In this document: one piece after another, positions 43,440 to 63,803 of the stretch | Numbering within the stretch: position 1 is the first letter of the stretch | Layout: each line of letters starts with the position of its first letter | DNA from: Verrucomicrobiota bacterium | Lineage (GTDB): Bacteria > Verrucomicrobiota > Verrucomicrobiia > Limisphaerales > UBA9464 | Length of the DNA stretch: 64,000 nucleotides | Assembly: GCA_017309115.1 (NCBI GenBank) | Contig: JAFLEF010000017.1 | Location: forward strand, 61,430 to 125,429 | Direction of reading: 5' to 3' | Notes under the pieces: model-generated | What the model was told of the DNA's origin: nothing | Seen by the model: only the letters and a program-made list of their open reading frames with translations | Database searches by the model: none | Position numbers and translations under genes: made by a program

Positions 43440-43546
43440 AAGGATGGCGGAGCAGGGGAGACGTCCCGGGGACCAGGGGAATCGTCTCTCAGTACGGAAA
43501 ATGATGGTAGTCGGCTTGGGATTTGCTCTTTTCTGAGCTCGATTCC

Positions 43547-46500
43547 ATGAATTTCCTCAGCGGCGTGTCTCTCCCCCTTGGTCGCCGACGCCACCGTTCC
43601 TTCGGGAACCGGTTGCTCTTTCTTCTGTTGTGGGCTGGTTTGGTTGCCCACGCCGGGTCCATCCGGCGGGAAGTCTTCTTCGACATTCCCGGCAACTCCA
43701 TCGCCGAGCTGACCAGTTCCCCCTCCTATCCCAACTCCCCGGGGTTGGTGGAGGATCTCACCGAGTTCTTCGAGGCTCCGACCGACCAGTTCGAAAACTA
43801 CGGCCAACGGGTCCACGGCTACATCGTTCCTCCAGTCACCGGGAGTTACACCTTCTGGATCTCCTCCGACGACAACGGCGAACTGTATCTCAGCACGGAT
43901 GAGAACCCCTCCAACGCCCGGCTGATCGGTTCCGTGCCGGAGTGGACCGGTTCGCGGGAATGGGAGAAGTACCCCCAACAGAAGTCGGCGACGATCAACC
44001 TTCAGGCCAACAAGGCTTACTACATTTCGGCGCTGATGAAGGAAGGTGGTGGCGGCGATAATCTGGCCGTGCGCTGGCTTCGGCCGGGAGGCATCGACGA
44101 GGGGCCGATTCCCGCCACGTACCTTCTGCCTTGGGGGACCGCTTTCACCCCGCCCGCGATCACCCAGCAGCCGACCAACACCACGGTTATCGAGGGGCAA
44201 CTGGCCACCTTCGTGGTTAAGGTCAGCAACATCGATCCCGTCGCGGTGCAATGGCGCCGCAATGGCCAAACGCTCGCCGGTGCCAATTCCCTGGTGCTGT
44301 CGTACGGCCCGGTCACCTTGGATGATCAGGGAGCGTTGTTTGGGGCGGTCCTGACCAACCGTATTGGGGCCACCAACACGTCCACCGGAACGCTGACGGT
44401 CCTTCCCGACACGACGGCGCCGGTGCTGCTGTCGGGGGTCAATTTGGGCTCGGGCCGAATTCAACTGCAGTTCTCCGAACCAATGGACCCGACGTCCGCG
44501 GCGGCTCCGGCCAACTACACCGTGAGCGGCGGAATCACGGTTTCCGGGGCGGCGCTCGGCACCGATCCGCGAACCATTGTGCTGACGGTCTCCCCGCTGA
44601 CCTTTGCGCAGAATTACTCGGTGACCGTCCGCGGATTGCGGGACCGGGCGCGGACTCCGAACACGGTCGCGGCGGGAAGCTCCATTGGGTTCCTCGCTTT
44701 GGAGTTGGTCTCGCAAAGCATCGGATCCGCCAATGGTTCCATCGTGCGACTGGGGGAGGGGGCCTTCCAGGTGACCGGAGGAGGCCGGGGTTCGGGCCGG
44801 ACATCCGACGAGTATCAGTTTGCTTGGGAACAGCGGACCGGGGACTTCGATCTGCGCGTCCGCGTGGATTCCTTAGACATCACTGATCCGTACGTTCAAG
44901 CGGGGTTGATGGCTCGGGCGAGTCTCGAAACCAATTCCGCCTATGCCGCCGTGTTCACGAGTTCCGCGCAGGTGGGTTCGTACTTCGAGAGCCGATCCAG
45001 TGCGGGAGCCAATCAGGTGTCCGCCGCTCCGCGTGGCGGATTTCCCTTCAACGGTCGGATCACCTGGCTGCGCTTGCAGCGAATTGGCGGCACTGTCTCC
45101 GGGTTTGGGAGTTTGGATGGTCGGACCTGGACCTCGCTGGGCTCGGTCTCGATCAACCTGGGATCTCCGGTTTACGTCGGCTTGGCGGCCTCAAGTCGGG
45201 AAGTGGATTCCCAGACCACCGCCCGGTTCTATGACTACGGAGCCGTGGTCAATCCCGTCGTTGGGGTTTTGGATACCGGACGTGAGCCGCTGGGACCGAC
45301 CACCCGAAAGACGGGAATCGTCGTCTCGGAAATCATGTATCACCCCCAGCCGCCGCCGGGAGTGACCAACAATCTGGAGTTCGTGGAACTGTACAATGCG
45401 GGTCCGGTCTTCGAAGAACTCGGCGGTTGGCGATTGGGCGGGGCGATTCAGTACACGTTTCCGGAGGGCTACAAACTCGAGGCCGGTGGCTTTGTGGTCG
45501 TGGCTGCTGATCCTGCGGGACTGCAAAGTGTGTCCAAGGTTCCCGGCGGACTCGGCCCCTTCAGTGGTTCGCTCAACAACTCCGGGGAGGTTCTCCAGGT
45601 CTTCGATGCGTTCGGAGCCCTAAAACTGGAAGTCGAGTACTCACCGAAAGCGCCCTGGCCAGTGGCCGCGGATGGTGGCGGCGTTTCGCTGGTACTCGCG
45701 CGGCCGAGTTACGGCCCGGATGATCCCCGGGCGTGGTCCGCCAGTGAGGTGATTGGTGGTTCCCCGGGGACCTACGATGCGATTCAGCCTTCCCCGCTGC
45801 GGGAAGTGGTGATCAATGAGTTCCTGGCTCACACCGATGATCCGCAATTGGATTTCGTGGAGCTGTTCAATCGGGGCAAGACGGAGGTCGATCTTTCCGG
45901 ATGCGTCCTGACCGATGATCCCGCCACCAACCGGTTCCGTCTTCCGGCGGGCACGCGGATCGCCCCGCGCGGATATCTGGTGTTCGATCAGAATCAACTC
46001 GGCTTTCGTCTGAGTTCTGCTGGCGAACAGGTGTTCCTGCTGAGCGCGGACGGAACCCGGGTTCTCGATGCCGTGGAATTTGGCGGACAGGAGAACGGGG
46101 TCAGCTCGGGCCGAGCGCCGGATGGCAGTCAGACGATTCGGCGTCTGTTGCAGCCAACACCGGGAGCTGGCAATGCCGCGTGGCGTCAGGAGGCCATTGT
46201 CATCAACGAGCTGATGTACCAGCCGATCTCCCGCGATGACGCGGATGAGTATTTGGAATTGCACAATCGTTCGACTCAGCCGGTGAACTTGAGCGGCTGG
46301 CGGTTTACCGAGGGAGTGCAGTTTGAATTCGCTCCTGGCACGACCGTTCCCGCCGGGGGCTTTCTGGTTGTGGCCAAGGATGCGGCGCGCATTCGTTCCA
46401 ATCACCCCACGCTGGAACCGTCCCGGGTGGTGGGCAATTATAGTGGGACCCTGGCCAATCGCGGGGAACGAGTTGCCTTGGCCATGCCGGATGAAGTCGT

Positions 46501-49500
46501 CGCGACTGACGACCAGGGAAATCAGGTGACGAACCTCATTCACATCGTGGTGGCCGAAGCGTTCTACCGGGAGAAGGATCGGTGGCATCAGTGGGCGGAT
46601 GGCGGGGGATCGAGTTTGGAATTGACCGATCCCGATGCGGATCCGCTGGAGCCGTCCAATTGGGCGGATTCGGATGAATCAACCAAGGCACCGTGGACCA
46701 CCGTCGCCTTTACGGGGAATCTTGATAACGGGATGGACGGTCGGTCCCCGGATCGATTCCAGATCAGTCTGATGGGAGCCGGGGAATGTCTGGTGGACGA
46801 CGTGGAGTTTTTCAAAACGGGTGGGGCGAACCTGCTGGGGAATGCCGACTTCGAGGGGGCTTCGGGATGGCAATTCTGGGGCAACCATTTCCGGTCGCGG
46901 TTGCAGACGGGCGAGGCTTTCGCAGGAAATCGATGTTTGCGGTTGGTGGCCGAAGGAGATGGCGATACCGGACCCAACTGTGTTCGCGCGGATCTGGCTT
47001 CCACGCCAACGGCCAGTGGGCAGGCTACACTTCGGGCCAAGGTTCGCTGGTTGCGCGGATGGCCGGAAATTTTGTTGCGCACCCATGGCAACTGGATCGA
47101 GGCCTATGGGCGCCTTCCGGTGCCCAACAATCTGGGTTCGCCGGGTCAAGCGAACGGCCGGCTGCTGGTCAATGCGGGTCCGGTGATCACCGAGGTCCAG
47201 CATCGGCCGCTGCTGCCGGCGGTTGGCCAGGCGGTCACGGTGACGGCTCGCGTGGCGGATCCGGACGGACTCGGTTCGGTGGTGCTGCGCTTCCGAGTGG
47301 ATCCGTCGGGCGCGGCGACCTCGGTGATCATGCGGGATGATGGTTCCGGAGTGGATGCCGCGGCTGGGGACGGCATTTACAGTGCGACGTTGACCGGCCG
47401 GAGTGAGGGCAGCCTGCTGGCCTTCCGGGTGGAGGCGACCGACGGCGCCAGTTTGCCAGCCAGCCGGGTTTTCCCGCCGAAGTTTCCGGAGAGCGAATGC
47501 CTGGTGCGCTGGGGCGATCCGGCTCCGAACGGGAGTTTCGGTCACTACCATTTGTGGACGACCCAAGCGACGGAGAACGCGCGCGGCAGCAGTTACGGTC
47601 TGAACAACCGCTTCCGCGATCTCACCGTGGTTTATGGCAATGCCCGGGCGATTTACGGTGCAGGGTTCCGGGACAAGGGCAGCCCGTTCCACGGTGGTTA
47701 CGGAGACTTCGTGGTGACTGTTCCAGGCGACGATCTGCTCCTTGGCGCGGAGGACCGGGTGCTGGGATTGACTGGCAATGGCGATACCGAAGAGACGGGC
47801 ATGCGGACCCAGGTGGCGAATTGGATCGCCTCCCGCCTGGGCATCCCGCATCTGCACAGCCACTACATCCGCCTGTACCGAAACGGCTCACAGTACTCCA
47901 ACGTCACGGAGGATTTGGAGCAGCCCAACAATGACTTTGCCGAAGGGTTCTTCCCGGCCGTGGACGAGGGGGATTTGTACAAGATCGCGGTGTGGTTTGA
48001 ATTCAATGACGACAACCAGGGATTCGATGCCCGGGGCGCGACCTTGGAGCGGTTCAATTCCGCCGGATTGGGCCTGAAGCCGGCGCGGTATCGGTGGAAT
48101 TGGCAAACCCGCGGGTGGCTGGGATCCGCCAATAATCTCACCAACATCTTCAATCTGGTCGGCGCGGCCAACTCGACGACCGACTACGCCAACCGCATGC
48201 AGGCCGTGGCCGACATGGAGCAGTGGATGCGGGTCTTCGCCTTCAACCGGATTTGCGGCAACTGGGATTCCTGGACCTTCTCGGTGGGCCAGAACATGTA
48301 CCTGTATTTCCAACCGGGTGAACGGGCCAAGCTGCTCCCGTGGGACATCGACTTTGTCCTGGGTCGGGGCAATGGACCCCAGGATCCACTCGGAGGCGGT
48401 AGCCTCGGAGGGTCCAATCAGGACCCCGTCGCGAATGCCTTCTATAACGAGCCGGCCTTTCGGCGCGCCTTGTTCCGGGCTTATCTGGATGCCGCCAACG
48501 GACCCCTGCTACCCGCTCAGTACGGACCGCAGCTGGAATCCCGCAAGGCGGTGCTTCAGAACAACGGGTTCACGGTGGGGGCCGCGGGAGATCTACGGGA
48601 TCCCAAACCGATCGCGACCTACATCGACGCCCGACGCAACTTTCTCCTGAGTCAGGTGAACGCGGCCAATCGCGCATTCGCGATCACAACCAGTGGCGGC
48701 GCCAACTTCACCGCCACGCAGCCTGTCGCCACAATCACCGGGACTGCTCCGTTTGCAGTCGCTCAACTGGAGATCAACGGCGTGGTCTTCCCGGTGCGCT
48801 GGACCAACGTGAACACCTTCAGCGTCGCCGTTCCCCTGGCGGCGGGAGCCAATGCTTTGAACCTGGTCGGACGCGACCGCGCTGGAAACGTTGTTCCCGG
48901 TGCCACCGATTCGATCACCGTGACCTACAACGGTCCGGTGCCTCAGGCGGCGGATTTCCTGGTGATCAATGAAATCCAATACGACTCGCCCCTGCCCGGG
49001 GGTTCGTTCATCGAACTGTTCAACCGCTCGGTCAATGTGCCGTTCGATCTCTCCGGCCTGGTGCTCTCAGGCGTGGGCTACACCTTTCCCTCGAACGCCG
49101 TCATCGCGCCGAACTCGTATCTGGTGCTGGCCAAGGATCGCACGGCCTTTGCGCTCGCCTATGGCAATACGGTTCCCGTGTTCGATGTGTTTCCCGGATC
49201 GCTCGACAACGGGGGCGAGACGTTGACGTTGCTGGAACCGGGAACGACTCCGGGTACGGAGAAGGTGATCAGCTCGGTTCGCTATGATGACGATCCCCCC
49301 TGGCCGGCGGCCGCGGCCGGGCTCGGGTCGTCCCTGCAATTGGTGGATTCCAACCAAGGCGCGTGGCGGGTGGCCAACTGGACGGCGCCGGCGACGAATG
49401 ACGTAAATCGAGTCACGCCGGGTCGAGCCAATGCCCTACGCAGTTCGCTGGCGGCATTTCCGACGCTCTGGCTCAACGAAGTGCTGCCCCAGAACGTGGA

Positions 49501-52500
49501 CGGTCCGGTGGACAATCGCGGCGAACGCGAACCGTTCATCGAACTGTACAATTCCGGAACCGCTCCGGTCGAAGTGGCGGGCCTGGTGCTCACGGACTCC
49601 TATTCCGACTTGGCCCGCTGGAGCATTCCGGCGGGGACCCCAGCGTTGGCTCCCGGCGCCTTTCTGGTGATTTGGGCCGATGGCGAGCCGACGGAATCCG
49701 CAGCGGGATCGCTTCACTCCAACTTCCGACTGAACCCGACCAACGGCGCCGTGGCGCTGGTGTGGTCCCAGGGGAGTCCCGCTCAGCCGGCCGTCCTCGA
49801 CTACGTCAACTACGCGCAGCAACCGATTGGGCGCAGTGTGGGCAGTTATCCGGACGGCGAGCCGCGGGGACGGCGAACGTTCTTCAAGGTGACTCCGGGG
49901 GCGCCGAATGATCCGGCTTTCCCGCCGGTGAACGTGGTGATCAATGAGTTCATGGCCAGCAATACTCGGACACTCACCAACGTGGTGAACGGCCGAAGGG
50001 ATGACTGGTTTGAACTCTACAACGTCGGTTCCGCGCCCGTGGATCTGACGGGATACTTCCTCAGCGACAATCTGACCAACCGCACGCAGTTCCAGATTCC
50101 GGCGGGCTTCGTGGTGCCGCCCGGAGGGTTTTTGTTGGTGTGGGCGGATGAGGAAACCCGGGCCAACACCAATGGTTCGCCCCAACTGCACACAAATTTT
50201 CGGTTGGGTGCAGGCGGCGAAGATCTGGCGCTGTTCGGGCCGGACGGGGCGCTGGTGGATGGATTTTCCTTCGGCGCTCAGCAGTCGGATATCAGCCAGG
50301 GACGCTTCCCGGATGGTCAGGCAGGACCCTTGGTGGCACTGGAACAGCCTTCGCCCGGCGCACCGAACCTTCTGGCGGGCGGCAATCGTCCGCCGGTGGT
50401 GACGCCGATTGCTGATCTGACCCGGGCGGAAGGCACGTTGGTGCAGTTCCGGGTCCAAGCTACCGACGAACCCGGACAAACGATTCGCTACAGTCTGGGA
50501 GTGGATGCCCCGCCGGAAGCGGTGCTGAACGAAATTACCGGCGACTTCAATTGGACGCCGACCGAAGCCCAGGGACCAGGAGTGTACTCCTTTGCGGTTC
50601 GGGCTTCGGACAATGGAACCCCCTCCCGCACCGGCTCGACCCGCGTAACGGTGACAGTGACCGAGGCGAATCAGGCGCCGGCCTGGGTGGAGTTGAAGAA
50701 TCAACTAGTGGACGAGCGATCCACGCTGTCGTTCCAGCTGGCGGCGACGGATGCTGACTTGCCGGCGAATACGTTGACCTATGAGTGGGTCGGCGAAGTG
50801 CCGCCGGGTTTGAGCTTGGATGCCGCGACCGGTCGCGTGACGTGGACGCCGACGGAGGCGCAGGGACCGGGGGTGTATCCCGTGCAGGTGCGAGTGGTGG
50901 ATTCCGCCACGCCTTCGGCCAGTACGCCCGGGTCCTTCGTGATCACCGTCAACGAAGTGAACAACCCGCCGGATCTGGCGGACATCCAACCCCAGAGTGC
51001 GGTCGAGGGGCAGCCGTTCGTCCTTCGGGCGACCGCGGTCGATGCCGACAATCCCCCGGCATCGCTCCGGTATTCACTCGAGGGCACGATCCCGGCTGGA
51101 CTGCACATCGAATCATCCACCGGCTTGATCAGTTGGACGCCCACGGAAACGCAAGGACCGGGCAATTACGTCATTCTGGTTCGGGTCACCGAGAACAATG
51201 CTGCCGGACTTAGCACCGCGCGGTCCTTCGGAATCAATGTGGCGGAGGCGAATCAGCCACCACGGCTGGATCCCTTGCCCGAGCTGACCGCCGAGGCTGG
51301 AACCACCGTTCGGTTCACCGCGACGGCGACGGATTTGGACCTGCCGGCGCAACCGTTGGTCTTCACCCTCGAAGGCACCCCGCCGCCGGGAGTGTCTTTG
51401 GATGGCAACACGGGCGAGTTCGCCTGGACCATTCCGGGCGATTCGCCGGCGGCCACCTACGAGCTGACGGTTCGCGTCAGCGATGGCGTGGAGGGTTCCA
51501 GCGCCTCGGCACCGCTGCGGATTCAAGTGACCCCTCGCTTCAACGTGGTGATCAGCGAGATCATGTACCGCCCGGCGTCGGTGAAGGGGGAGTACATCGA
51601 GCTGAAGAACGCGTCGGCGGTGACGGCGTGGGATCTGTCTGGGTACCGACTGATCGGAGAAACACTAAGTTTCACGTTCCCGACGGGCACGACGCTGGCT
51701 CCGGGCCAACTGCTCTGCGTAGCGTCGGACGCCGCGAGTTTCCGAACGCTCTACGGCGCCGTTCCCAGGTTGGCTGGAGCTTGGACGGGCAGTCTGGGAG
51801 TGCAGGATGATTACCTGCGCCTCAGCCCGCCGGCTCCGAGTTCGCGGATTCTCTCGCCCGTCCGGTACAGTGCCCGTGCGCCGTGGCCCGCAGCGGCCAA
51901 TGGCTCGGGCGCATCCTTGCAGCTGATCGATGACCGGCAGAGTCCGGCCCGGGTGGCAAACTGGTCTGGAGCACCGGCCTACAATGGGCCGCGTCAGTTG
52001 GTGGTGCTGACCAACCAATGGCGCTATTACCAATCAGGTCCGCTGGAGGCCTCCTGGAAGAATCAGTCGTTTGTGGACTCCGCCTGGCCCCAGGGTCGAG
52101 GCCTGTTGTACCGGGAAGACGCGGACCTTCCCGCGCCCAAGAACACCCTGCTGAACCTGGGTCAATCCACGTATTACTTCCGCACCCGGTTTGAACTGCC
52201 TTCGGTTCCGGCTGGAGTCACGCTGAGCCTCTCCACGGTCATTGATGATGGCGCGGTGTTTTATCTGAACGGTCAGGAGATCTTCCGGCAAAACATCCCG
52301 CCGGACGCGGTGGTGGACTTCAACACGCCCGCCTCGCCGAATGTGGCCGATGCCACCCTGGTGGGGCCGATCACGCTTCCCGCTGGGGCCTTGCAGGTGG
52401 GAGTCAATGTGCTGGCGGTGGAAGTGCACCAGTCGGGACTGGGTAGTTCCGACATCGTCATGGGGTGCCGGCTGGATTTGGAGGGGGGCAATTTGCCGGG

Positions 52501-53797
52501 GCTGACTCCGGGCGCTTCCAACAACGTGGCGGCGGTGCGCGCGACTTTCCCAGAAATCTGGCTGAATGAAGTCGTTCCGAATAACACCACCGGGTTGGCC
52601 GACCGCTTCGGCGATCGAGAGCCTTGGGTGGAGATTCACAACGCCGGACGAATTGAGATTGGTTTGGATGGCTGGGCGCTGACGGATTCCCTGGGCACTC
52701 CGGGACGATGGGTGATTCCGGCCGGGACTCGAATTCCGGCTGGCGGCTTCGTGGTGGTGTTTCTCGACAACGAAGTCTCCGAGACTGGTGTCGGTGAGCT
52801 GCACGCCAGTTTCCGTCCGGCGACCGGTGCGGGACTGCTGGCCTTGTCGCGACCGACTCCCGCTGGCTGGGAACTCGCGGATTACCTGGAATACCCGGCC
52901 CTGGGAGCGAACGAAGCGTGGGCTTCGTTGCCGGACGGTCAGCCCTTTGTGCGGTCCCGGACCACCCGTCCAACTCCAGGGGCAGCGAATTCTCCGAGCG
53001 TGGCCAACCAACCTCCGGTGTTATCGGCGCTCGGAGCGATGAGTGTGGACGAGGGAACACAACTCCAACGGATGGCGTCAGCCGTGGATCCCGATGCCGG
53101 ACAGATCCTGACCTATTCCTGGGTCGGTGAAGTACCGGCCGGCCTGACGTTGAATCCGGGCACGGGCTTGATCCGCTGGATTCCGGATGAAGCGGTGGGA
53201 CCGGCCGTCGTTACGGTAACCCTGCGGGTGACCGACAACGGCCTTCCGGCTTTGAGCGACGAGGAGACCTTCACCATCACGGTTCGGGAAGTGAACCGGC
53301 AGCCGGTGGTGGATGCGGTCGCGGCCCAAGCCGCTTCGGTGGGAGAACTGTGGGTTCTGGCGGTGTCGGCGCGGGACTTCGACTTCCCGCCGCAGGCCCT
53401 GAGTTTCTCGCTGGAAGGGGCTCCGGCGGGCATGACGATCGGCGCGAGTTCGGGCGTGGTTTCCTGGACCCCTTCGGCCGCGGATGTGGGGACCCGACAA
53501 TTCCAAGTGCGAGTGACGGATGCCGGTAGTCCCATTCTATCGGCGGCGACTCCGGTGATGGTGACGGTGACCGGTGGTTCCGGCTCGACCTTCCCGGTGG
53601 GTGCCGAGATTTCGAACAATGGCTTGAAGCTGACTTGGGCCTCGCAGTCTGGAGTCACCTATCGCGTCGAGACCGTGCCGGCTCTGGGACAAAGTTGGAC
53701 GTTGCTCGAAAGCGTGGTCGGGACGGGGCAAGCCATGACCTACACTGTGCCAGTGGAACAGGCGCCGCCCCGGTTCTTCCGGGTCGTGGCGCCTTGA
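43547..53797 (+). CDS. Giant secreted lamin-tail/CotH/PA14/putative-Ig protein
   Basis: A 3416-residue secreted protein. The signal peptide has core NRLLFLLLWAGLVAHAGS, and the start is ATG 43547. Rough domain order: PA14 (40-185); Ig-like (203-284); SbsA-type Ig; a beta-sandwich (about 390-575); three lamin-tail domains (588-655, 751-818, 883-948); a galactose-binding-like region (1045-1200); a CotH-like domain (1318-1705) with LLPWDIDFVLGRG; three lamin-tail domains (1803-1865, 1971-2048, 2128-2205); four putative-Ig repeats (2281-2663); lamin-tail 7 (2665-2732); a second galactose-binding-like domain (2817-2982); lamin-tail 8 (3001-3075); two putative-Ig repeats (3151-3343); and a C-terminal FFRVVAP module. 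Probably exported to the surface; CotH domains in other proteins are atypical kinases. No catalytic role is proven here. Confidence 0.9.
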   Translation: MNFLSGVSLPLGRRRHRSFGNRLLFLLLWAGLVAHAGSIRREVFFDIPGNSIAELTSSPSYPNSPGLVEDLTEFFEAPTDQFENYGQRVHGYIVPPVTGSYTFWISSDDNGELYLSTDENPSNARLIGSVPEWTGSREWEKYPQQKSATINLQANKAYYISALMKEGGGGDNLAVRWLRPGGIDEGPIPATYLLPWGTAFTPPAITQQPTNTTVIEGQLATFVVKVSNIDPVAVQWRRNGQTLAGANSLVLSYGPVTLDDQGALFGAVLTNRIGATNTSTGTLTVLPDTTAPVLLSGVNLGSGRIQLQFSEPMDPTSAAAPANYTVSGGITVSGAALGTDPRTIVLTVSPLTFAQNYSVTVRGLRDRARTPNTVAAGSSIGFLALELVSQSIGSANGSIVRLGEGAFQVTGGGRGSGRTSDEYQFAWEQRTGDFDLRVRVDSLDITDPYVQAGLMARASLETNSAYAAVFTSSAQVGSYFESRSSAGANQVSAAPRGGFPFNGRITWLRLQRIGGTVSGFGSLDGRTWTSLGSVSINLGSPVYVGLAASSREVDSQTTARFYDYGAVVNPVVGVLDTGREPLGPTTRKTGIVVSEIMYHPQPPPGVTNNLEFVELYNAGPVFEELGGWRLGGAIQYTFPEGYKLEAGGFVVVAADPAGLQSVSKVPGGLGPFSGSLNNSGEVLQVFDAFGALKLEVEYSPKAPWPVAADGGGVSLVLARPSYGPDDPRAWSASEVIGGSPGTYDAIQPSPLREVVINEFLAHTDDPQLDFVELFNRGKTEVDLSGCVLTDDPATNRFRLPAGTRIAPRGYLVFDQNQLGFRLSSAGEQVFLLSADGTRVLDAVEFGGQENGVSSGRAPDGSQTIRRLLQPTPGAGNAAWRQEAIVINELMYQPISRDDADEYLELHNRSTQPVNLSGWRFTEGVQFEFAPGTTVPAGGFLVVAKDAARIRSNHPTLEPSRVVGNYSGTLANRGERVALAMPDEVVATDDQGNQVTNLIHIVVAEAFYREKDRWHQWADGGGSSLELTDPDADPLEPSNWADSDESTKAPWTTVAFTGNLDNGMDGRSPDRFQISLMGAGECLVDDVEFFKTGGANLLGNADFEGASGWQFWGNHFRSRLQTGEAFAGNRCLRLVAEGDGDTGPNCVRADLASTPTASGQATLRAKVRWLRGWPEILLRTHGNWIEAYGRLPVPNNLGSPGQANGRLLVNAGPVITEVQHRPLLPAVGQAVTVTARVADPDGLGSVVLRFRVDPSGAATSVIMRDDGSGVDAAAGDGIYSATLTGRSEGSLLAFRVEATDGASLPASRVFPPKFPESECLVRWGDPAPNGSFGHYHLWTTQATENARGSSYGLNNRFRDLTVVYGNARAIYGAGFRDKGSPFHGGYGDFVVTVPGDDLLLGAEDRVLGLTGNGDTEETGMRTQVANWIASRLGIPHLHSHYIRLYRNGSQYSNVTEDLEQPNNDFAEGFFPAVDEGDLYKIAVWFEFNDDNQGFDARGATLERFNSAGLGLKPARYRWNWQTRGWLGSANNLTNIFNLVGAANSTTDYANRMQAVADMEQWMRVFAFNRICGNWDSWTFSVGQNMYLYFQPGERAKLLPWDIDFVLGRGNGPQDPLGGGSLGGSNQDPVANAFYNEPAFRRALFRAYLDAANGPLLPAQYGPQLESRKAVLQNNGFTVGAAGDLRDPKPIATYIDARRNFLLSQVNAANRAFAITTSGGANFTATQPVATITGTAPFAVAQLEINGVVFPVRWTNVNTFSVAVPLAAGANALNLVGRDRAGNVVPGATDSITVTYNGPVPQAADFLVINEIQYDSPLPGGSFIELFNRSVNVPFDLSGLVLSGVGYTFPSNAVIAPNSYLVLAKDRTAFALAYGNTVPVFDVFPGSLDNGGETLTLLEPGTTPGTEKVISSVRYDDDPPWPAAAAGLGSSLQLVDSNQGAWRVANWTAPATNDVNRVTPGRANALRSSLAAFPTLWLNEVLPQNVDGPVDNRGEREPFIELYNSGTAPVEVAGLVLTDSYSDLARWSIPAGTPALAPGAFLVIWADGEPTESAAGSLHSNFRLNPTNGAVALVWSQGSPAQPAVLDYVNYAQQPIGRSVGSYPDGEPRGRRTFFKVTPGAPNDPAFPPVNVVINEFMASNTRTLTNVVNGRRDDWFELYNVGSAPVDLTGYFLSDNLTNRTQFQIPAGFVVPPGGFLLVWADEETRANTNGSPQLHTNFRLGAGGEDLALFGPDGALVDGFSFGAQQSDISQGRFPDGQAGPLVALEQPSPGAPNLLAGGNRPPVVTPIADLTRAEGTLVQFRVQATDEPGQTIRYSLGVDAPPEAVLNEITGDFNWTPTEAQGPGVYSFAVRASDNGTPSRTGSTRVTVTVTEANQAPAWVELKNQLVDERSTLSFQLAATDADLPANTLTYEWVGEVPPGLSLDAATGRVTWTPTEAQGPGVYPVQVRVVDSATPSASTPGSFVITVNEVNNPPDLADIQPQSAVEGQPFVLRATAVDADNPPASLRYSLEGTIPAGLHIESSTGLISWTPTETQGPGNYVILVRVTENNAAGLSTARSFGINVAEANQPPRLDPLPELTAEAGTTVRFTATATDLDLPAQPLVFTLEGTPPPGVSLDGNTGEFAWTIPGDSPAATYELTVRVSDGVEGSSASAPLRIQVTPRFNVVISEIMYRPASVKGEYIELKNASAVTAWDLSGYRLIGETLSFTFPTGTTLAPGQLLCVASDAASFRTLYGAVPRLAGAWTGSLGVQDDYLRLSPPAPSSRILSPVRYSARAPWPAAANGSGASLQLIDDRQSPARVANWSGAPAYNGPRQLVVLTNQWRYYQSGPLEASWKNQSFVDSAWPQGRGLLYREDADLPAPKNTLLNLGQSTYYFRTRFELPSVPAGVTLSLSTVIDDGAVFYLNGQEIFRQNIPPDAVVDFNTPASPNVADATLVGPITLPAGALQVGVNVLAVEVHQSGLGSSDIVMGCRLDLEGGNLPGLTPGASNNVAAVRATFPEIWLNEVVPNNTTGLADRFGDREPWVEIHNAGRIEIGLDGWALTDSLGTPGRWVIPAGTRIPAGGFVVVFLDNEVSETGVGELHASFRPATGAGLLALSRPTPAGWELADYLEYPALGANEAWASLPDGQPFVRSRTTRPTPGAANSPSVANQPPVLSALGAMSVDEGTQLQRMASAVDPDAGQILTYSWVGEVPAGLTLNPGTGLIRWIPDEAVGPAVVTVTLRVTDNGLPALSDEETFTITVREVNRQPVVDAVAAQAASVGELWVLAVSARDFDFPPQALSFSLEGAPAGMTIGASSGVVSWTPSAADVGTRQFQVRVTDAGSPILSAATPVMVTVTGGSGSTFPVGAEISNNGLKLTWASQSGVTYRVETVPALGQSWTLLESVVGTGQAMTYTVPVEQAPPRFFRVVAP

Positions 53798-55008: not shown

Positions 55009-55080
55009 AGCGAGTGGGCCCGTTCGGAGTCCCGGCTTGAGCCGGTCCCGGGTAATGCGCAAAGAGCCGGATGATTGATC

Positions 55081-55110
55081 CGCAGATTGACGCAGATCAG
55101 CGCAGATTTC
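55081..55110 (+). repeat. Three imperfect 10-bp repeats (CGCAGATnnn)
   Basis: CGCAGATTGA, CGCAGATCAG and CGCAGATTTC stand in tandem in the gap between two convergent genes. Similar CGCAGAT-based arrays occur between genes in unrelated bacteria, as I recall, and are probably dispersed repeats without coding role. The CCGGC-TTGA-GCCGG hairpin at 55032-55045 lies just before it. Confidence 0.7.
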
Positions 55111-55182
55111 GAAGGAAGGGAAGGATGGTACGAGCACTTCCCGTCGGGTCGAAGAAACGTTTCGGATTAAGAGTCGTGGAGA

Positions 55183-58104
55183 CTAAAGAGATGCGTTTCT
55201 GCGGGTGGTCTTCCAATGAACCGGCGTCGTCTTTCCCGGTTCGGCCTCCAATTCTAACTCCTCGCCATGACGCCACGCGTTTGTCCCCTGGTGCAGAGTT
55301 ATCGGGTGGAGAATGACCAACTTGAGCGGACCGGGAGGCACACTCTCGAAACCAAATCGACCTTCGGCATCGGTCAGAGTTTGGAATCGTCGCGAATCGA
55401 ACCTGACTGGGTCATGAAGTCCACCCCGACCGAACAGGGCGAGCCGGACACCCGCCAAAGGTGTCGCATTAGATTCGAGATACCCCTGAATCTTGGCCCA
55501 CGATTGCAGCCTCCAGGTCCTTTGGGACGAGGCCAGTTCGGCGGACAGATCCAGATATCCAGAGGGGTGAACGATTACAATTCGGGTCGAAGGATCCTCC
55601 CAGGTCAGACTCACTTGGCCCAGTTGGTCGGTCTGATGTTGAACCACCCCTGCGCGTTCGTTTCCTGAATACAGCGCAAATCCGTCGAGAATCGCTTGGG
55701 CACCAGAACGAAGGATGGCCACGTCCGCTCCGGTAACCAAACTTCCCTGCGGACTGGTCACGGCCAGGACGATTCCTGGGGTCGGCTTCAGGCTGGCATC
55801 TAGTTGGATGAGTCCTTCCTGAGTGGAAATCCATCGGGATGTAAACGGAGCGAATCCTTCCGCTGCGATGCGGACGTAGTAGCCGGCCTCCGGGGATTCG
55901 CTAACCACGGGTTCCGTCAGGGAAAGCTGGAATTGGCCCCCGCTGAACGACTCCCCAAAGCGCTCTCGAGAGCTCCAGACCAAATTGGTGACGACTCGGA
56001 CTCCGTCGAAGGTTGCTTCCGGACTTCCCACGCTGACCGAAAACCGCGGAATCAACTCACCGGTGTCGGCGTTTCTCACTCGTCCCGTAACGGTGACGGC
56101 CGGATGGAGAACCAGGGTGTGCGTCTTCTCTGAGGGACGGATTTGTCCCATCGTTGTACTTCGAAATCCTTTCGCCTCGACCTGGAAGACGAGCTCGCGG
56201 TCGGGCGCTTCGTTCCAGGTCATTTGGCCGTCTGGGCCGGAACGCAGTCGGAGCCATACCTGAGGAGGGGGCTGTGAGCCCGAATCGTAATGATTCGCAT
56301 CGAAGGTATCCAGTGACGCCAGGCCTCCCTCAATGGGAGTTCCATCAGCCGTGACCAACTTAAGTCGGAGTGCTCGGGAAGGTTCGAGCTTGATTCGAAA
56401 CTGAGTGTTTTCGGGAGTGACGCTGATTCGAAGGGTGTTGGGCGCGAATCCCGGAGCGACCGCAGTCAAAAGTCGGTTCCCCCTTCGGCAACCCTTCAGA
56501 ACAAAGGCGCCGCCCTCGCCGGTGGTCTGGGTCTCGGCCGGGAAGCGTGGATCGTTAAGGATACCTAGGGTTACGCTGGCCCCCGAGATCGGACGTTCGT
56601 TGCCATCCACCACGAGTCCGGAAATCTCGGTGCCGGGGCTGAGTCGTACGACATGGTTGCCCTTGAGCAAGGCCGTCTCGGCGGGTTTGTCTCGATGAAT
56701 CCAGACCCCTGAAGACGGATGGTTGGGATGATCCACCACCAGTTGGCTGTTGCGGACCATGTCCGAACCCATTCGATTCAGAGTCCATCGACCGTCAGGA
56801 TTTGTGGTGGTCTCCAGCATTCCAAACTCGTGACTTATTGGGCGACGGTTTTGAGTGAAGTTCGCCTGCTGCCGAAACTGAATGTGCGCTCCAGGAACTG
56901 GCTGGCCTTCGGAGTCGATCACGAGGCCACCCAGATGAACGGAGGGTTCCAGGGTCACCGTGAATTCGGTCGGGACGAGTTCTCCATTTGGGGGCCTCCA
57001 CGTAAGCCGAGTAGTCGCCCAACCGTCGGCTTGAGTGGTCAGTTGTACGACCGAAGGATTCTCCGGTAGGGGTACTTCACACCTGCCGTCAGGCCCGGTA
57101 ACGACTTCGAAGCGTTTGGAATCGTCGTCCGCCTCAACAAGAGCATCCACCGAAAGTGCCGGAAGCGGGCGTCCATCCGTCGCGCCGATGACGGTCAATC
57201 TAAAGACGGCTTGGGCAGAAAGAGGATCCGAAGCTCCGATATTGGATCCGGTACCTGTCCAACTTGGAGATAGCTCGACCTGAGCGATTTGATCATGGGA
57301 ATCCGAGGGAAGTGTCAGGCGCTTTTTGTCATGGGCCAGCCGGACCAAGCCGAGAAACGCAATGAGCATGGCCGTCAGAGCGATGAGGCCCGCGGGAACT
57401 ATGGGGCGAGGCAATCGGGAACCCACTTTGGTGGCGGTGCCGACCCCAACTCGCTGCTCGCGCACGTCAACGCAGATTTGGACGCCAAGATTGATTGGGG
57501 CGTTGGAAACGGAGTTCTGGCCCAGCACGGTTCCCAACGCTGAAATGGTCGAGATGACGCCACGGGAGGCCAATTTTGATCGGAGTCGATCGAGGGCTCG
57601 GTCCACTCGCATTCGGGCAGCATTTTCCGTGGAGCCCAAGCGCCGGCCTATGTCGGCATGGGAAAGTCGCTCGAAGAACCTCCAAAGCAGGGCTTCACGA
57701 TCCGCGACATCGAGTTGGCTGAGACAATCGTCCAAGAGCGGGCGAATCTCCTCCCAAGGTGGGTTGTTGGGCGCCAAGTCTGGAATCTGATTCACGATGA
57801 GAATTCGCTTCTCCCGCCCTCGTCGTCGTTGTTCCCTGCGAAGGTGGTGGTTGACCTCAAATCGGGTGCTCGTATGGAGCCAACCAGCGAGTGAGGTGTG
57901 GGAGTCCAATTGGTGCGCCTTGGCCGCGAGATCGATGAAGACGCGTTGGCTTACATCAGAGGCGGCGGAGGAATCGCCGTTGAGTTGGCGCAGAGCCACC
58001 GAGTAAACCCAATTCAGATGCCGGGCGACGAGATCAGCAAAGGCGTCGTCAGATCCCTCCGAGGCAAACCTCCGAAGCAATTCTTCGTCGCTCACCGTTT
58101 CCAT
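55183..58104 (-). CDS. ECF-type sigma factor fused to a transmembrane helix and extracytoplasmic carboxypeptidase-regulatory-like repeats
   Basis: A 973-residue fusion. Sigma region 2 (about 10-100) includes DDAFADLVARHLNWVYSVAL and DVSQRVFIDL. Region 4 (about 125-182) includes LDVADREALLWRFFERLSHA and ADIGRRLGSTENAARMRVDR. A single membrane helix follows (about 235-256, IVPAGLIALTAMLIAFLGLV). The remaining 700 residues, presumably in the periplasm, contain about six units of the carboxypeptidase-regulatory-like kind (GLVIDSEGQPVPGAHIQF, SGLVVDGNERPISGASVTL, TGRVRNADTGELIPRF and others). No separate anti-sigma gene is adjacent, so the tail may control the sigma domain directly. I start at ATG 58104 (METVSDEELL); GTG 58135-58137 would add 11 residues. 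Confidence 0.88.
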   Translation of the reverse strand: METVSDEELLRRFASEGSDDAFADLVARHLNWVYSVALRQLNGDSSAASDVSQRVFIDLAAKAHQLDSHTSLAGWLHTSTRFEVNHHLRREQRRRGREKRILIVNQIPDLAPNNPPWEEIRPLLDDCLSQLDVADREALLWRFFERLSHADIGRRLGSTENAARMRVDRALDRLRSKLASRGVISTISALGTVLGQNSVSNAPINLGVQICVDVREQRVGVGTATKVGSRLPRPIVPAGLIALTAMLIAFLGLVRLAHDKKRLTLPSDSHDQIAQVELSPSWTGTGSNIGASDPLSAQAVFRLTVIGATDGRPLPALSVDALVEADDDSKRFEVVTGPDGRCEVPLPENPSVVQLTTQADGWATTRLTWRPPNGELVPTEFTVTLEPSVHLGGLVIDSEGQPVPGAHIQFRQQANFTQNRRPISHEFGMLETTTNPDGRWTLNRMGSDMVRNSQLVVDHPNHPSSGVWIHRDKPAETALLKGNHVVRLSPGTEISGLVVDGNERPISGASVTLGILNDPRFPAETQTTGEGGAFVLKGCRRGNRLLTAVAPGFAPNTLRISVTPENTQFRIKLEPSRALRLKLVTADGTPIEGGLASLDTFDANHYDSGSQPPPQVWLRLRSGPDGQMTWNEAPDRELVFQVEAKGFRSTTMGQIRPSEKTHTLVLHPAVTVTGRVRNADTGELIPRFSVSVGSPEATFDGVRVVTNLVWSSRERFGESFSGGQFQLSLTEPVVSESPEAGYYVRIAAEGFAPFTSRWISTQEGLIQLDASLKPTPGIVLAVTSPQGSLVTGADVAILRSGAQAILDGFALYSGNERAGVVQHQTDQLGQVSLTWEDPSTRIVIVHPSGYLDLSAELASSQRTWRLQSWAKIQGYLESNATPLAGVRLALFGRGGLHDPVRFDSRRFQTLTDAEGRFGFESVPPGPLKLVILHPITLHQGTNAWRHGEELELEAEPGKTTPVHWKTTRRNASL

Positions 58105-58298
58105 ACTGGGGAACACCCGCCCGAGACTAAACCGCACACAAATTCGACAGCAAGACGCTCACCTGGGAGCCAGATCGTCTGTCATCCCGGCCCTACGGTG
58201 AAACCTCGCGCTACCTTGTTTCTACCTTCCGAGGTCTCAGCTCTTGATCGGAACGAGTGATTCCAACCGCGAGTCGAGTGAACTCCTAAAGGGTACTT

Positions 58299-61974: not shown

Positions 61975-62463
61975 TTAGCTCTTCGCGCTCAGGGCGGCTT
62001 GGAGCTTGGCTTCGTCCTCGTGAGACAGGGAGGTCTTCAGGACGGTGCCGCCGGAACCCTTGAGTTCCTCCAGCACTTTGTCCGGCGTGGCCTTGCGAAC
62101 GAGGACAAACAGGGCTGAGCTGCCGGGTTTGAAAGTGGCGGCAAGATCCTTCATGAACTGGTCGTTAATGCCGAGGTCGGTCAGGGCTCCCGACACCGCG
62201 CCGGTGCTGGCTCCAATGGCCAGACCCAACAACGGATTGAGGAAGATCAAACCAATCAAGGATCCCCAGAACCCGCCACTCACCGCTCCGGCGGTCGTGA
62301 GGTTGATGGCCTGATTCAACTTCACTTTTCCCTCCTGGTCTTTGGTAACGACCACGGCGTCTTCGAGGTCAATCAAGTACTCCGCCTGTAGCTTCCGCAG
62401 TTTGAGGCGGACTTCTTCGGCCTGAAACAGGTTGTCGTAGCCAATAACGGTCAGTGTGCTCAT
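61975..62463 (-). CDS. DUF1269 membrane protein
   Basis: A 162-residue protein starting at ATG 62463 (MSTLTVIGYDNLFQAEEV). A ferredoxin-like N-terminal part (about 1-50) is followed by a Gly/Ala-rich hydrophobic zone (about 60-95, SGGFWGSLIGLIFLNPLLGL and AIGASTGAVSGALTD) of the glycine-zipper kind. The family is DUF1269, of unknown function, often seen with stress or envelope genes. Frames open upstream to 62925 but the extension is not family-like. Two short hairpins (62495-62508 and 62513-62526) lie in its leader. Confidence 0.82.
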   Translation of the reverse strand: MSTLTVIGYDNLFQAEEVRLKLRKLQAEYLIDLEDAVVVTKDQEGKVKLNQAINLTTAGAVSGGFWGSLIGLIFLNPLLGLAIGASTGAVSGALTDLGINDQFMKDLAATFKPGSSALFVLVRKATPDKVLEELKGSGGTVLKTSLSHEDEAKLQAALSAKS

Positions 62464-62897
62464 GAGATTTTGGTAATGGGTGCTCGCCTTGGGACCCCGC
62501 ATACGGGGACGGCGATCGATTGATCGTCCTGTGGCGAAACCGGTGGAGAATCCTGTTCCGGGGCCGAACTGATGTCGAGTGAACTCCCGGCGACTAGACG
62601 GGCGCAAAAGCGACGGACGGAGTCGACGGCCGTTGGCCTCGTCTACCTTCCGGCTGAGTCCGCCGAGGATCCGCCCTTGACCGACGGGTGCGTCACGTCC
62701 TACACCGCTGGCCGCAACATGCGTTTGACCCTCTGGAACAGTGTAATCGTAGCAGCCTCCGCCCGTATTGGGCGCTGGCTGCGCGCTTCCGGCTGTCTGG
62801 GCTGAACTGCCTCCCGACGACCGGAAGCCCAGGAAGGGTTCCGGTGGTTGGCGCACTGTAGAACGCTTCCCGGGACTCGGTTCGTCACTCTGACGAA
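62464..62897. other. 434-bp intergenic stretch without a convincing gene
   Basis: Between divergent DUF1269 and the DMT transporter I find no frame with a recognisable product. It has the small hairpins CCCCG-CATA-CGGGG (62495-62508) and CGATC-GATT-GATCG (62513-62526) in the DUF1269 leader. The rest must hold the two divergent promoters, but I see no strong -10/-35 pair. Confidence 0.6.
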
Positions 62898-63803
62898 ATG
62901 AAACCTCCGTCCCACCATCACCCACCCACTGAACGTCACAGCGTCGCTTGGATGCTGCTGTCGATTGTGCTCTACGCCGGCAACGTGCTCATTCTACGGG
63001 CCGCTGCGGAAGCGTCCCCAGTCGCCGATGCGTGGGTGGCCACCGCGTTTCGGGGCGTCATCGGTCTGGTATTGGTGGCCGCGCTGTTTGGCGGACGGGG
63101 ATTTCAGGCCCGGAACCTGGTGAGTCGGCCTTTGGTTCTGGCGCGTGGTCTGGTGGGGGCGGTGGCCATTCTGCTGTTCTACTTCACCATCCCGCATCTC
63201 GGGGCCGGCCGGGCGGTGATTCTCAATCTGACCTACCCAGTGTTTGCCGGCTTGATGGCCCAATATTGGATTGGCGAATCGATGTCCCGGCGGCAATGGG
63301 GTTGGATGTTGGCGTCGCTGGCGGGTCTGATGATTTTCCTGGGGTCCGATGCCTGGAAGCCAGGCGCCATCGTCTGGGAATTGGTGGGACTCCTGGGCGC
63401 GATCACGGCCGGGGGCGCAGTGGTCCTGATCCGGGAACTGCGCCACAGCGAACATCCCTCGACGGTGTTCGCCTCCCAATGTCTGTGGAGTTTGGCGCTC
63501 ACCCTGCCGTTCAGCTTCGGATCCGTTCGCTCCCTGCCCAGCGGGGTTCTGGCCGCTCTGATCGGCGCGGCCGTTTTGGTGGGGTTGGCGCAACTCGCCA
63601 TGACCCACGCCTTCCGTTCGCTTTCGGTAGCCCGCGGATCGGCGATCCAGATGCTGCTTCCATTGCTCACGACTCTGGGTGGCATGGCCCTCTTTAACGA
63701 GCGGCTGAGTCTGCTGGAGGTCGTTGGTGCGGCGCTAACGCTTTGGGGAACGTTTGAGGCGGTGCGGCCTCGGGCGAGCCCAGCGGCGGCTCCGGCGCGT
63801 TAA
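62898..63803 (+). CDS. EamA/DMT-superfamily transporter
   Basis: A 301-residue membrane protein with about ten helices in two EamA repeats. The first half contains VAWMLLSIVLYAGNVLILRA and AVILNLTYPVFAGLMAQYWI; the second contains GLLGAITAGGAVVLIRELRH and LLPLLTTLGGMALFNERLSL. It lacks a signal peptide, as expected. The substrate is unknown. It is not a close copy of the transporter at 10414. The end of a group II intron lies 84 bp downstream on the other strand. Confidence 0.9.
   Translation: MKPPSHHHPPTERHSVAWMLLSIVLYAGNVLILRAAAEASPVADAWVATAFRGVIGLVLVAALFGGRGFQARNLVSRPLVLARGLVGAVAILLFYFTIPHLGAGRAVILNLTYPVFAGLMAQYWIGESMSRRQWGWMLASLAGLMIFLGSDAWKPGAIVWELVGLLGAITAGGAVVLIRELRHSEHPSTVFASQCLWSLALTLPFSFGSVRSLPSGVLAALIGAAVLVGLAQLAMTHAFRSLSVARGSAIQMLLPLLTTLGGMALFNERLSLLEVVGAALTLWGTFEAVRPRASPAAAPAR

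Follow-up and report, generated by a model that had tools for sequence, protein, structure and literature searches.

Sigma factors of the extracytoplasmic function (ECF) type that carry long extra parts are known from several bacterial lineages, among them the WD40-type ECF factors of the Gemmataceae reportedly described by Jogler in 2012. According to the accessible part of PMC8999054, C-terminal extensions occur in at least 26 ECF groups, with a zinc finger and membrane helices in ECF48, ECF52 and ECF53; IutY of Pseudomonas putida (ECF243) is there the one fused case with experimentally characterised proteolysis, and 15 extension groups remain unstudied. The accessible text of PMC8567305 places a class of ECF sigma factors with WD40 repeats in the Triton- or sodium dodecyl sulphate (SDS)-soluble fractions of a planctomycete. 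Here, we describe a related arrangement in a 64,000-nucleotide stretch of a Verrucomicrobiota genome (the window; contig JAFLEF010000017.1, positions 61,430 to 125,429), in which a minus-strand gene at 55183..58104 encodes a protein of 973 residues, P0001, composed of a sigma factor, a membrane helix and a carboxypeptidase-regulatory-like tail. The family to which it belongs is a variant of known fused ECF factors (IutY, ECF52 and the planctomycete WD40-ECF proteins), and we read it as a one-protein transmembrane signalling switch, an explanation to which, taken in full, we give a probability of roughly 0.58.

Comparison with these systems, as far as the accessible parts of the sources describe them, brings out both the kinship and the differences. 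IutY likewise joins an ECF sigma factor to a membrane-bound regulatory part in one chain and answers an extracytoplasmic signal, whereas its C-terminus is a fused anti-sigma factor serving cell-surface signalling in iron uptake, and P0001 has no Pfam match to an anti-sigma domain up to an E-value of 1 (nor have 20 paralogues in its own genome up to 0.01). In ECF48, ECF52 and ECF53 the extension also includes a membrane helix, and SCO4117 of Streptomyces coelicolor adds an extracytoplasmic carbohydrate-binding domain; these groups have a zinc finger, in contrast to the conserved Ala-rich module without one and the different tail seen here. Lineage-wide expansion of paralogues, long extra parts and membership of the same superphylum are shared with the WD40-type factors of the Gemmataceae, which differ in bearing WD40 repeats where the present family has transthyretin-like and other tails. 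Pfam searches of P0001 up to an E-value of 1 gave no zinc-finger domain, no SnoaL-like or TPR extension of the ECF41 or ECF42 kind and no WD40 repeats, the last also lacking in the 20 paralogues up to 0.01. No family of sigma factors with carboxypeptidase-regulatory-like tails is described in the accessible parts of PMC8103513 and PMC7406223, and no paper on such fusions was found among the hits listed in a search whose coverage stopped short of most subscription papers and of the 2021 ECF classification, where the architecture may well be noted.

Architecture and conservation of the fused protein

The window gene runs from an ATG at 58104 to a stop codon at 55183-55185, 973 codons without an internal stop. 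An in-frame GTG at 58137 is an alternative start that would add 11 residues, and the ATG is preferred because this GTG falls within a promoter-like element described below. P0001 is an ECF member of the sigma-70 family by regions 2 and 4, both over curated cut-offs: Sigma70_r2 (PF04542) matches residues 25-94 (57823..58032, on the minus strand like all parts of the gene) with 39.5 bits against a cut-off of 24, Sigma70_r4_2 (PF08281) matches residues 124-174 (57583..57735) with 37.3 bits against 25.7, PF04545 is also over its curated cut-off, and TIGR02937 (sigma70-ECF) reaches 72.6 bits against 42.9. No region-3 match was listed beside these in the profile searches, and the score of 62.5 bits for the Rhodopirellula/Verrucomicrobium sigma subfamily TIGR02989 lies below the curated cut-off of 124.55. 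A single hydrophobic stretch at residues 235-253 (57346..57402), with a Kyte-Doolittle value of 2.39 over 19 residues, is the predicted membrane helix, and its position agrees with that in the family. The tail (residues 300-973; 55186..57207) scores 110 bits for CarboxypepD_reg (PF13620) over four stretches and holds, counted by eye, about seven G-x-V-x-D-x-x-G-x-P-like repeats, read as transthyretin-like modules. The original prediction, which had spoken of an ECF sigma factor with regions 2 and 4 intact, one membrane helix and 'about six' beta modules, is thus borne out in its first two parts and fairly worded in the third.

The fusion is real, intact and conserved. When P0001 was searched in 39 genomes, its own included, with at most 21 candidates scored per genome, all 39 gave a match at 1e-3, ordinary sigma factors included, and at least 11 of the 38 others (G003, G004, G007, G012, G014, G016, G018, G020, G022, G028 and G035) held a near-full-length match that ran from query residue 7 or earlier to residue 928 or later in one open frame without stops, at identities of 31-40%. 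A frameshift or assembly error at the joint between sigma factor and tail, one way in which the fusion might have proved an artefact, is excluded by these matches; nor are sigma factor and tail always separate genes in homologues, the fusion being kept in relatives throughout the family defined next.

The fetched loci together held 151 distinct sigma open reading frames, of which 27 were dropped as partial or below 80 bits and 124 counted as members; because the loci were fetched as best matches to the family, the shares that follow describe the family and not sigma factors at large. At least 100 residues follow the sigma domain in 121 members, a helix at a Kyte-Doolittle value of 1.5 or more is present in 118, proline occurs in the linker of 120, and 115 share all three features, two of the nine exceptions (L088 and L174) being truncated by the ends of their loci. 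The named relatives come from 60 loci, mostly metagenome-assembled genomes whose titles give Limisphaerales, Opitutaceae or other Verrucomicrobiota; Hydrogenedentota (L177) and Planctomycetota (L180, which at 58 bits was omitted from the family counts) appear in one record title each. A member titled as an Akkermansia muciniphila assembly (L141) has a linker and helix like those of the Opitutaceae member L146, perhaps through a binning error. In an even draw of the phylum, with at most 15 candidates scored per genome, the sigma part together with the adjoining module matched at 1e-12 in 25 of 194 genomes, the own genome included, and at 80 bits or more in 16. All 54 of the 65 listed matches that reached 80 bits lie in frames of at least 336 residues, one with an internal TGA, and the 11 weaker ones are divided between frames of 181-206 residues (four) and 377-2294 residues (seven). 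Among plasmids, a search with the sigma part gave two genes annotated as ordinary sigma-70 family factors, at 25.1% and 26.9% identity.

The genome of the window itself carries at least 21 such paralogous fusions, the window protein included. Of its 74 places that match Sigma70_r2, 59 were fetched, including every frame above 300 residues (the 15 omitted are frames of 123-271 residues), and 21 open reading frames, of 393-1173 residues stop to stop, share the sigma domain of P0001 at 99 bits or more. Their tails vary: CarboxypepD_reg is over its cut-off in nine (P0001, L032, L033, L036, L037, L039, L044, L047 and L051), L040 has a HEAT match below threshold, and the remaining tails give nothing over a cut-off; in ten other members, only TonB_C and HEAT_2 exceed theirs. 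Two further own-genome frames, L031:6771-8534 and L052:5146-6882, are of a different fused type, in which an ECF-like sigma factor is followed by several predicted membrane helices, and on two Opitutaceae contigs (L134:7905-15683 and L150:6641-14037) four sigma-fusion genes each are clustered on the same strand.

Between sigma region 4 and the helix lies a module that is new in this analysis, at residues 178-214 of P0001 (57463..57573). Over some 30 residues the family follows the pattern RG[VI]xSTxxALxxxLxxxxVxxAPxGLxxx[VI], and the mean information per column among 121 members, 2.39 bits for residues 182-210, approaches that of sigma regions 2 (2.72) and 4 (2.83); the values for the spacer, the helix and the part beyond it are 1.51, 1.64 and 0.97. 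Of the 121 members, 118 have G182, 115 P203, 107 L190 and 100 L206, and the centre of the helix is placed a median of 58 residues (quartiles 54 and 61) beyond the point where the sigma domain ends. Since a passive tether would need neither conservation nor fixed spacing, we infer from these two properties that the module may be a built-in inhibitor and coupling piece.

The location of the tail is suggested by the company that similar tails keep elsewhere. Six non-sigma loci were fetched among the matches to P0001 (L101-L106): in four of them (L101, L104, L105 and L106) a similar tail stands behind an N-terminus that by eye resembles a signal peptide, and in two (L102:3-4208, 158 bits; L103:763-4320, 156 bits) behind a BlaR1-type Peptidase_M56 head, likenesses in the tail alone, the head of these receptors being a protease and not a sigma factor. 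The frame L106:2414-5605 is a secreted-looking carboxypeptidase-regulatory-like protein with a C-terminal AhpC/TSA-redoxin domain, and the tail of a more distant sigma member, L131, is TonB_C (3.2e-16). Because similar tails follow signal peptides and M56/BlaR1 heads, that of P0001 most likely lies outside the cytoplasm, as had been proposed from its letters alone, and these cases fit a tail module borne by different kinds of transmembrane head.

A promoter-like element and its residue-base code

A two-part, promoter-like element precedes the start codons of the family, a feature that is likewise new here. Upstream DNA was usable, with an ATG and enough sequence before it, for 114 of the 124 members (113 after one duplicate was removed), and matrices fitted to these 113 upstream regions read tTTGTgCGgTTTc and nCGGCGGcTGtTAn. 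An element above the 99% level of mononucleotide shuffles was found before 95 members, with a median score of 22.2 against -8.3, a figure that shows consistency and not independent discovery, as the matrices were trained on the same 113 regions. The gap is 4 or 5 nucleotides in 93 of the 95 elements and the end lies 8-15 nucleotides before the ATG in 74. Before the window gene the element is TGTGTGCGGTTTA-GTCT-CGGGCGGGTGTTCC (58110..58140, minus strand), its -35-like and -10-like halves ending 5 nucleotides before the ATG, and the pair score is 26.0, where the 99% level of the shuffles is 6.3; the window gene is itself within the training set. From this placement, transcription would start at or near the ATG. 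Before the sigma gene of L140, at 3755, there is a second, slightly altered copy of that gene's own element about 250 nucleotides farther upstream.

If the fused sigma factor reads its own element, changes in its DNA-contacting residues should go along with changes in particular bases, more strongly than changes elsewhere in the sigma domain. Todor reportedly made use of autoregulated ECF promoters in 2020, and the same approach is followed here. A first scan of all columns suggested a few pairs, which were then ranked over all variable sigma columns with 2000 permutations. Among 87 members below 80% identity, the best of 166 columns was residue 165 for position 5 of the -35 element, residue 164 for position 6, and residues 86, 58 and 79 for positions B7, B8 and B9 of the -10 element, each of the five pairs being equalled in none of the 2000 permutations. 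With 40 members below 60% identity, the pairs of position 5 with 165, position 6 with 164, B7 with 86 and B9 with 79 again gave none in 2000 and rank 1 of 158 columns.

Over the 95 members the pairings can be read almost as a code, and this code of residues 164 and 165 with the -35 and 79 and 86 with the -10 bases is also new. M165 goes with G or T in 56 of 56 cases and K165 with C in 30 of 30; R164 is found with C (70 of 72), Q164 with G (15 of 15) and H164 also with G; K or R at 86 accompanies G in 30 of 31, and D, E or Q accompanies C in 35 of 35, while S79 goes with G in 35 of 37. These pairings make chemical sense. In P0001, S79 and H86 belong to region 2 and R164 and M165 to the recognition helix of region 4, and the code positions of the window element are consistent with all four. 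R164-M165 align without a gap over the R-S pair of a solved ECF SigE. According to the accessible part of PMC6713349, K170/T171 of SigW and R171/S172 of E. coli SigE, a K/R-S/T pair, contact -35 bases in crystals. In the alignment of P0001 to solved structures the register of SigW itself is given only as a range, and a further structure search, made with region 4 by itself, did not list SigW.

The code also carries across genomes. Learnt from relatives alone and used to predict a string sought in the 65 nucleotides upstream, it matched 19 of the 21 own-genome upstream regions, against 33 of 314 mismatched pairs of code and upstream region and 753 of 4200 shuffles, with the proviso that own members were in the training set of the matrix by which the elements of the relatives had been located. 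Similarity of sigma domains and of upstream regions is correlated as a whole (Mantel-type r 0.527), with none of 1000 free and none of 2000 within-genome shuffles as high, and for single own members the upstream region of the nearest sigma relative ranked 3 to 77 of 96. Linked inheritance of a gene and its upstream region would also give such a correlation, which we therefore treat as background only; the argument is carried by the position-specific test, because linked inheritance would hardly make single bases track single contact residues. That the sigma domain is active and autoregulated is thus well supported by sequence, and the family would share the trait, common though not universal among ECF factors, of an autoregulated promoter with sigma-specific -35 and -10 elements. 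The 21 own members bear 15 combinations at residues 79, 86, 164 and 165, the S, H, R and M of the window protein being unique there and four members sharing T, R, K and K, so that most of these channels should be separate and some should overlap.

Where else the element occurs bears on what each sigma factor might control. When the fetched DNA (1.55 Mb) was scanned with the matrix at a threshold of 14 bits, 113 sites emerged, 93 of them upstream of family members. Taken together, the other 20 hardly exceed chance: a single shuffle gave 16, four mononucleotide shuffles 5-11 and four dinucleotide shuffles 12-17. Six of the 20 exceed 20 bits (0-2 in shuffles) and four exceed 25 bits (none in eight shuffles); two of these four, L138:7128 (255 residues) and L131:7341 (213 residues), stand before genes of exported-looking proteins, signal peptides here being judged by eye, that directly precede a sigma gene, and two, L139:1135 and L156:10589, have no clear gene. 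Weaker sites at L138:4775 (529 residues, 20.6 bits) and L138:4684 on the minus strand (309 residues, 16.8 bits) also precede exported-looking proteins and could be chance. At L138:4684-7950, then, the element is seen before genes of exported-looking proteins beside the sigma fusion, the 309-residue one with LTxxQ/CpxP-like repeats by eye, and at L131:7341-9419 the gene of a TonB-like lipoprotein, so judged by eye, bears the element and is followed by a sigma fusion with a TonB_C tail.

Strict patterns, each built from known promoters of the family, gave few sites. In the own genome, one pattern found the window gene and L046 and another L036, sigma-fusion genes only, and in the 6-Mb Opitutaceae genome of L138 a pattern made from two sites found those two alone, both at the locus of the sigma gene. 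An over-strict pattern overlooked the window gene and gave a single site in 39 genomes (L181), with no sigma gene downstream of it; this site and L189, one of three found by the pattern that detects L036, apparently lie inside coding frames and were taken as chance. Allowing three mismatches in the own genome returned six sites, two before sigma genes and four others, against four in the control. Within the limits of such pattern searches, the regulons look small and local.

Signal transfer and the alternatives

The explanation we favour would run as follows. The ECF sigma domain would lie in the cytoplasm, a single helix would pass through the inner membrane, and the transthyretin-like modules in the periplasm or at the surface would bind a putative ligand or envelope component. 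To judge by its conservation and nearly fixed spacing, the module after region 4 would keep the sigma factor silent and pass the signal on. On a signal, the chain would be cut within the membrane helix or close to it, by analogy with IutY and as the least certain step, and the freed sigma domain would bind RNA polymerase. Reading the promoter next to the ATG, it would produce a nearly leaderless transcript of its own gene, with positive feedback as a result, and in some relatives it would probably transcribe adjacent genes of exported proteins too. With their varied tails and 15 code combinations, the fusions of this one genome, 21 or more in number, would amount to largely separate channels.

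Several observations weigh against this explanation or some part of it, and its support reaches as far as the sigma factor reading its own promoter, a step that is itself argued from sequence. The positive-inside bias around the helix is weak (62 members for, 35 against and 27 even, of 124), and at the threshold of 1.5 a helix is missing from six of the 124, including L032 and L044. By the matrix, 18 of the 113 upstream regions on which it was trained have no element. In the covariation, B8 with residue 58 fails below 60% identity (15 of 2000, rank 6), and among the 11 members below 50% the two -35 pairs hold (6 and 0 of 2000) and the three -10 pairs fail (1673, 681 and 913); N86 (18 members) and K164 (6) go with several bases. 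L033 and L037 miss the cross-genome prediction, the match of L055 is probably at the wrong site, and the KK and KM codes, borne by nine own members, were learnt from one relative each. M50 proteases are present in the own genome and also in 14 of 14 control genomes, which makes them undiagnostic. Finally, the window copy ends early and is perhaps partly decayed: in 14 aligned relatives and paralogues the protein extends beyond the C-terminus of P0001, mostly by about 140 residues. A frameshift at the 3' end was considered as the cause and rejected, no remnant of the missing part being seen by eye in three frames downstream. Just 3' of the gene (55051-55163, with the repeat copy itself placed at 55075..55128) lies a dispersed repeat for which the own genome gave at least 37 further matches, 40 of 100 candidates being scored. 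The window copy may thus have lost its last module, with the remaining frame and the promoter code intact.

How the signal would cross the membrane is the point on which the nearest alternative turns. CadC and ToxR act while tethered to the membrane, and ligand binding or the conformation of the tail might similarly free the sigma domain from its module, polymerase being recruited at the membrane and nothing cleaved. In favour of this, the single helix follows a conserved module at an almost constant distance, which points to mechanical coupling more than to a loose tether, and the Pfam searches of P0001 and its 20 own-genome paralogues offer no anti-sigma domain that could be degraded. A sigma factor leaves the promoter with polymerase or soon after it, which would make a membrane tether awkward. 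In IutY, moreover, the sole fused case with experimentally characterised proteolysis, Prc and RseP are needed, and proteolysis by this pair is established for IutY alone (PMC8999054, accessible part). We therefore favour proteolysis by analogy and hold tethered action to be possible, though as a complete account it strikes us as unlikely.

A different question is what the sigma factor is for, as the tail may be the main product of the gene, a periplasmic or surface component with its own transcription factor attached, and the gene itself the main target, so that loss, cleavage or occupation of the tail would release the sigma factor and restore supply. The strict patterns, whose own-genome sites lie only before sigma-fusion genes (the window gene, L046 and L036) and whose two sites in the Opitutaceae genome are both at the sigma locus, are what this view would expect; yet such patterns miss diverged targets, one having missed the window gene itself, some genes of exported-looking proteins beside sigma genes carry the element (L138 and L131), and with four non-sigma sites against four in the control at three mismatches, weak targets are indistinguishable from chance. 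As an explanation of the whole we consider it rather improbable. Least probable by far is a chance fusion of a sigma gene to a surface-protein gene in which the sigma factor is inactive: many ECF-type places in the own genome have no long extension and the window copy may have lost its last module, which speak for this view, but an anatomy shared by 115 of the 124 members, the conservation of sigma regions 2 and 4 and, above all, a base-by-residue code contradict it. The signalling switch with proteolytic release thus stays our preferred account.

Neighbouring genes and significance

The envelope genes beside the fusion are not conserved with it in the other fetched loci. The original prediction had noted envelope proteins upstream, and the genes for DUF3300 (167 bits), DUF2950 (347 bits) and a 416-residue protein without a Pfam family match at 1e-3 are indeed there; their partnership is not supported, as none of the three has a homologue in the open reading frames of those loci, whose flanks are in many cases no longer than 1.5 kb, and on the same ground the convergent 395-residue gene and the gene at 61975-62925 were set aside as well. 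Beyond the convergent neighbour, a plus-strand open frame of 3424 residues (43523-53797) encodes a very large and highly repetitive protein, probably of the surface. The survey of fetched loci found other family members in tandem and also a pilin-like family in ten loci, on the same strand in seven; this family is very common in the superphylum, and its presence was therefore given no weight. A zinc-type anti-sigma gene was sought by the motif H-x3-C-x2-C in frames of at least 120 residues within 2.5 kb of the 21 own members, a weak test whose one match is an overlapping frame inside L055, in agreement with the earlier remark that no anti-sigma gene is adjacent.

With a likely promoter, a readable code, a candidate inhibitory module and natural swaps of the tail in one family, the activation of a membrane-anchored sigma factor becomes testable with a small reporter, and the code may offer orthogonal pairs of sigma factor and promoter. 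A bolder and rather doubtful proposal is that the genome holds at least 21 largely separate, self-amplifying one-protein channels across the membrane, told apart by the residue-base code, and that each sigma factor acts chiefly or solely on its own gene, at most together with adjacent genes of exported proteins. If this were true, the sigma factor would be a thermostat built into an extracytoplasmic protein, and that protein, as a receptor or wall component, would call for its own replacement.

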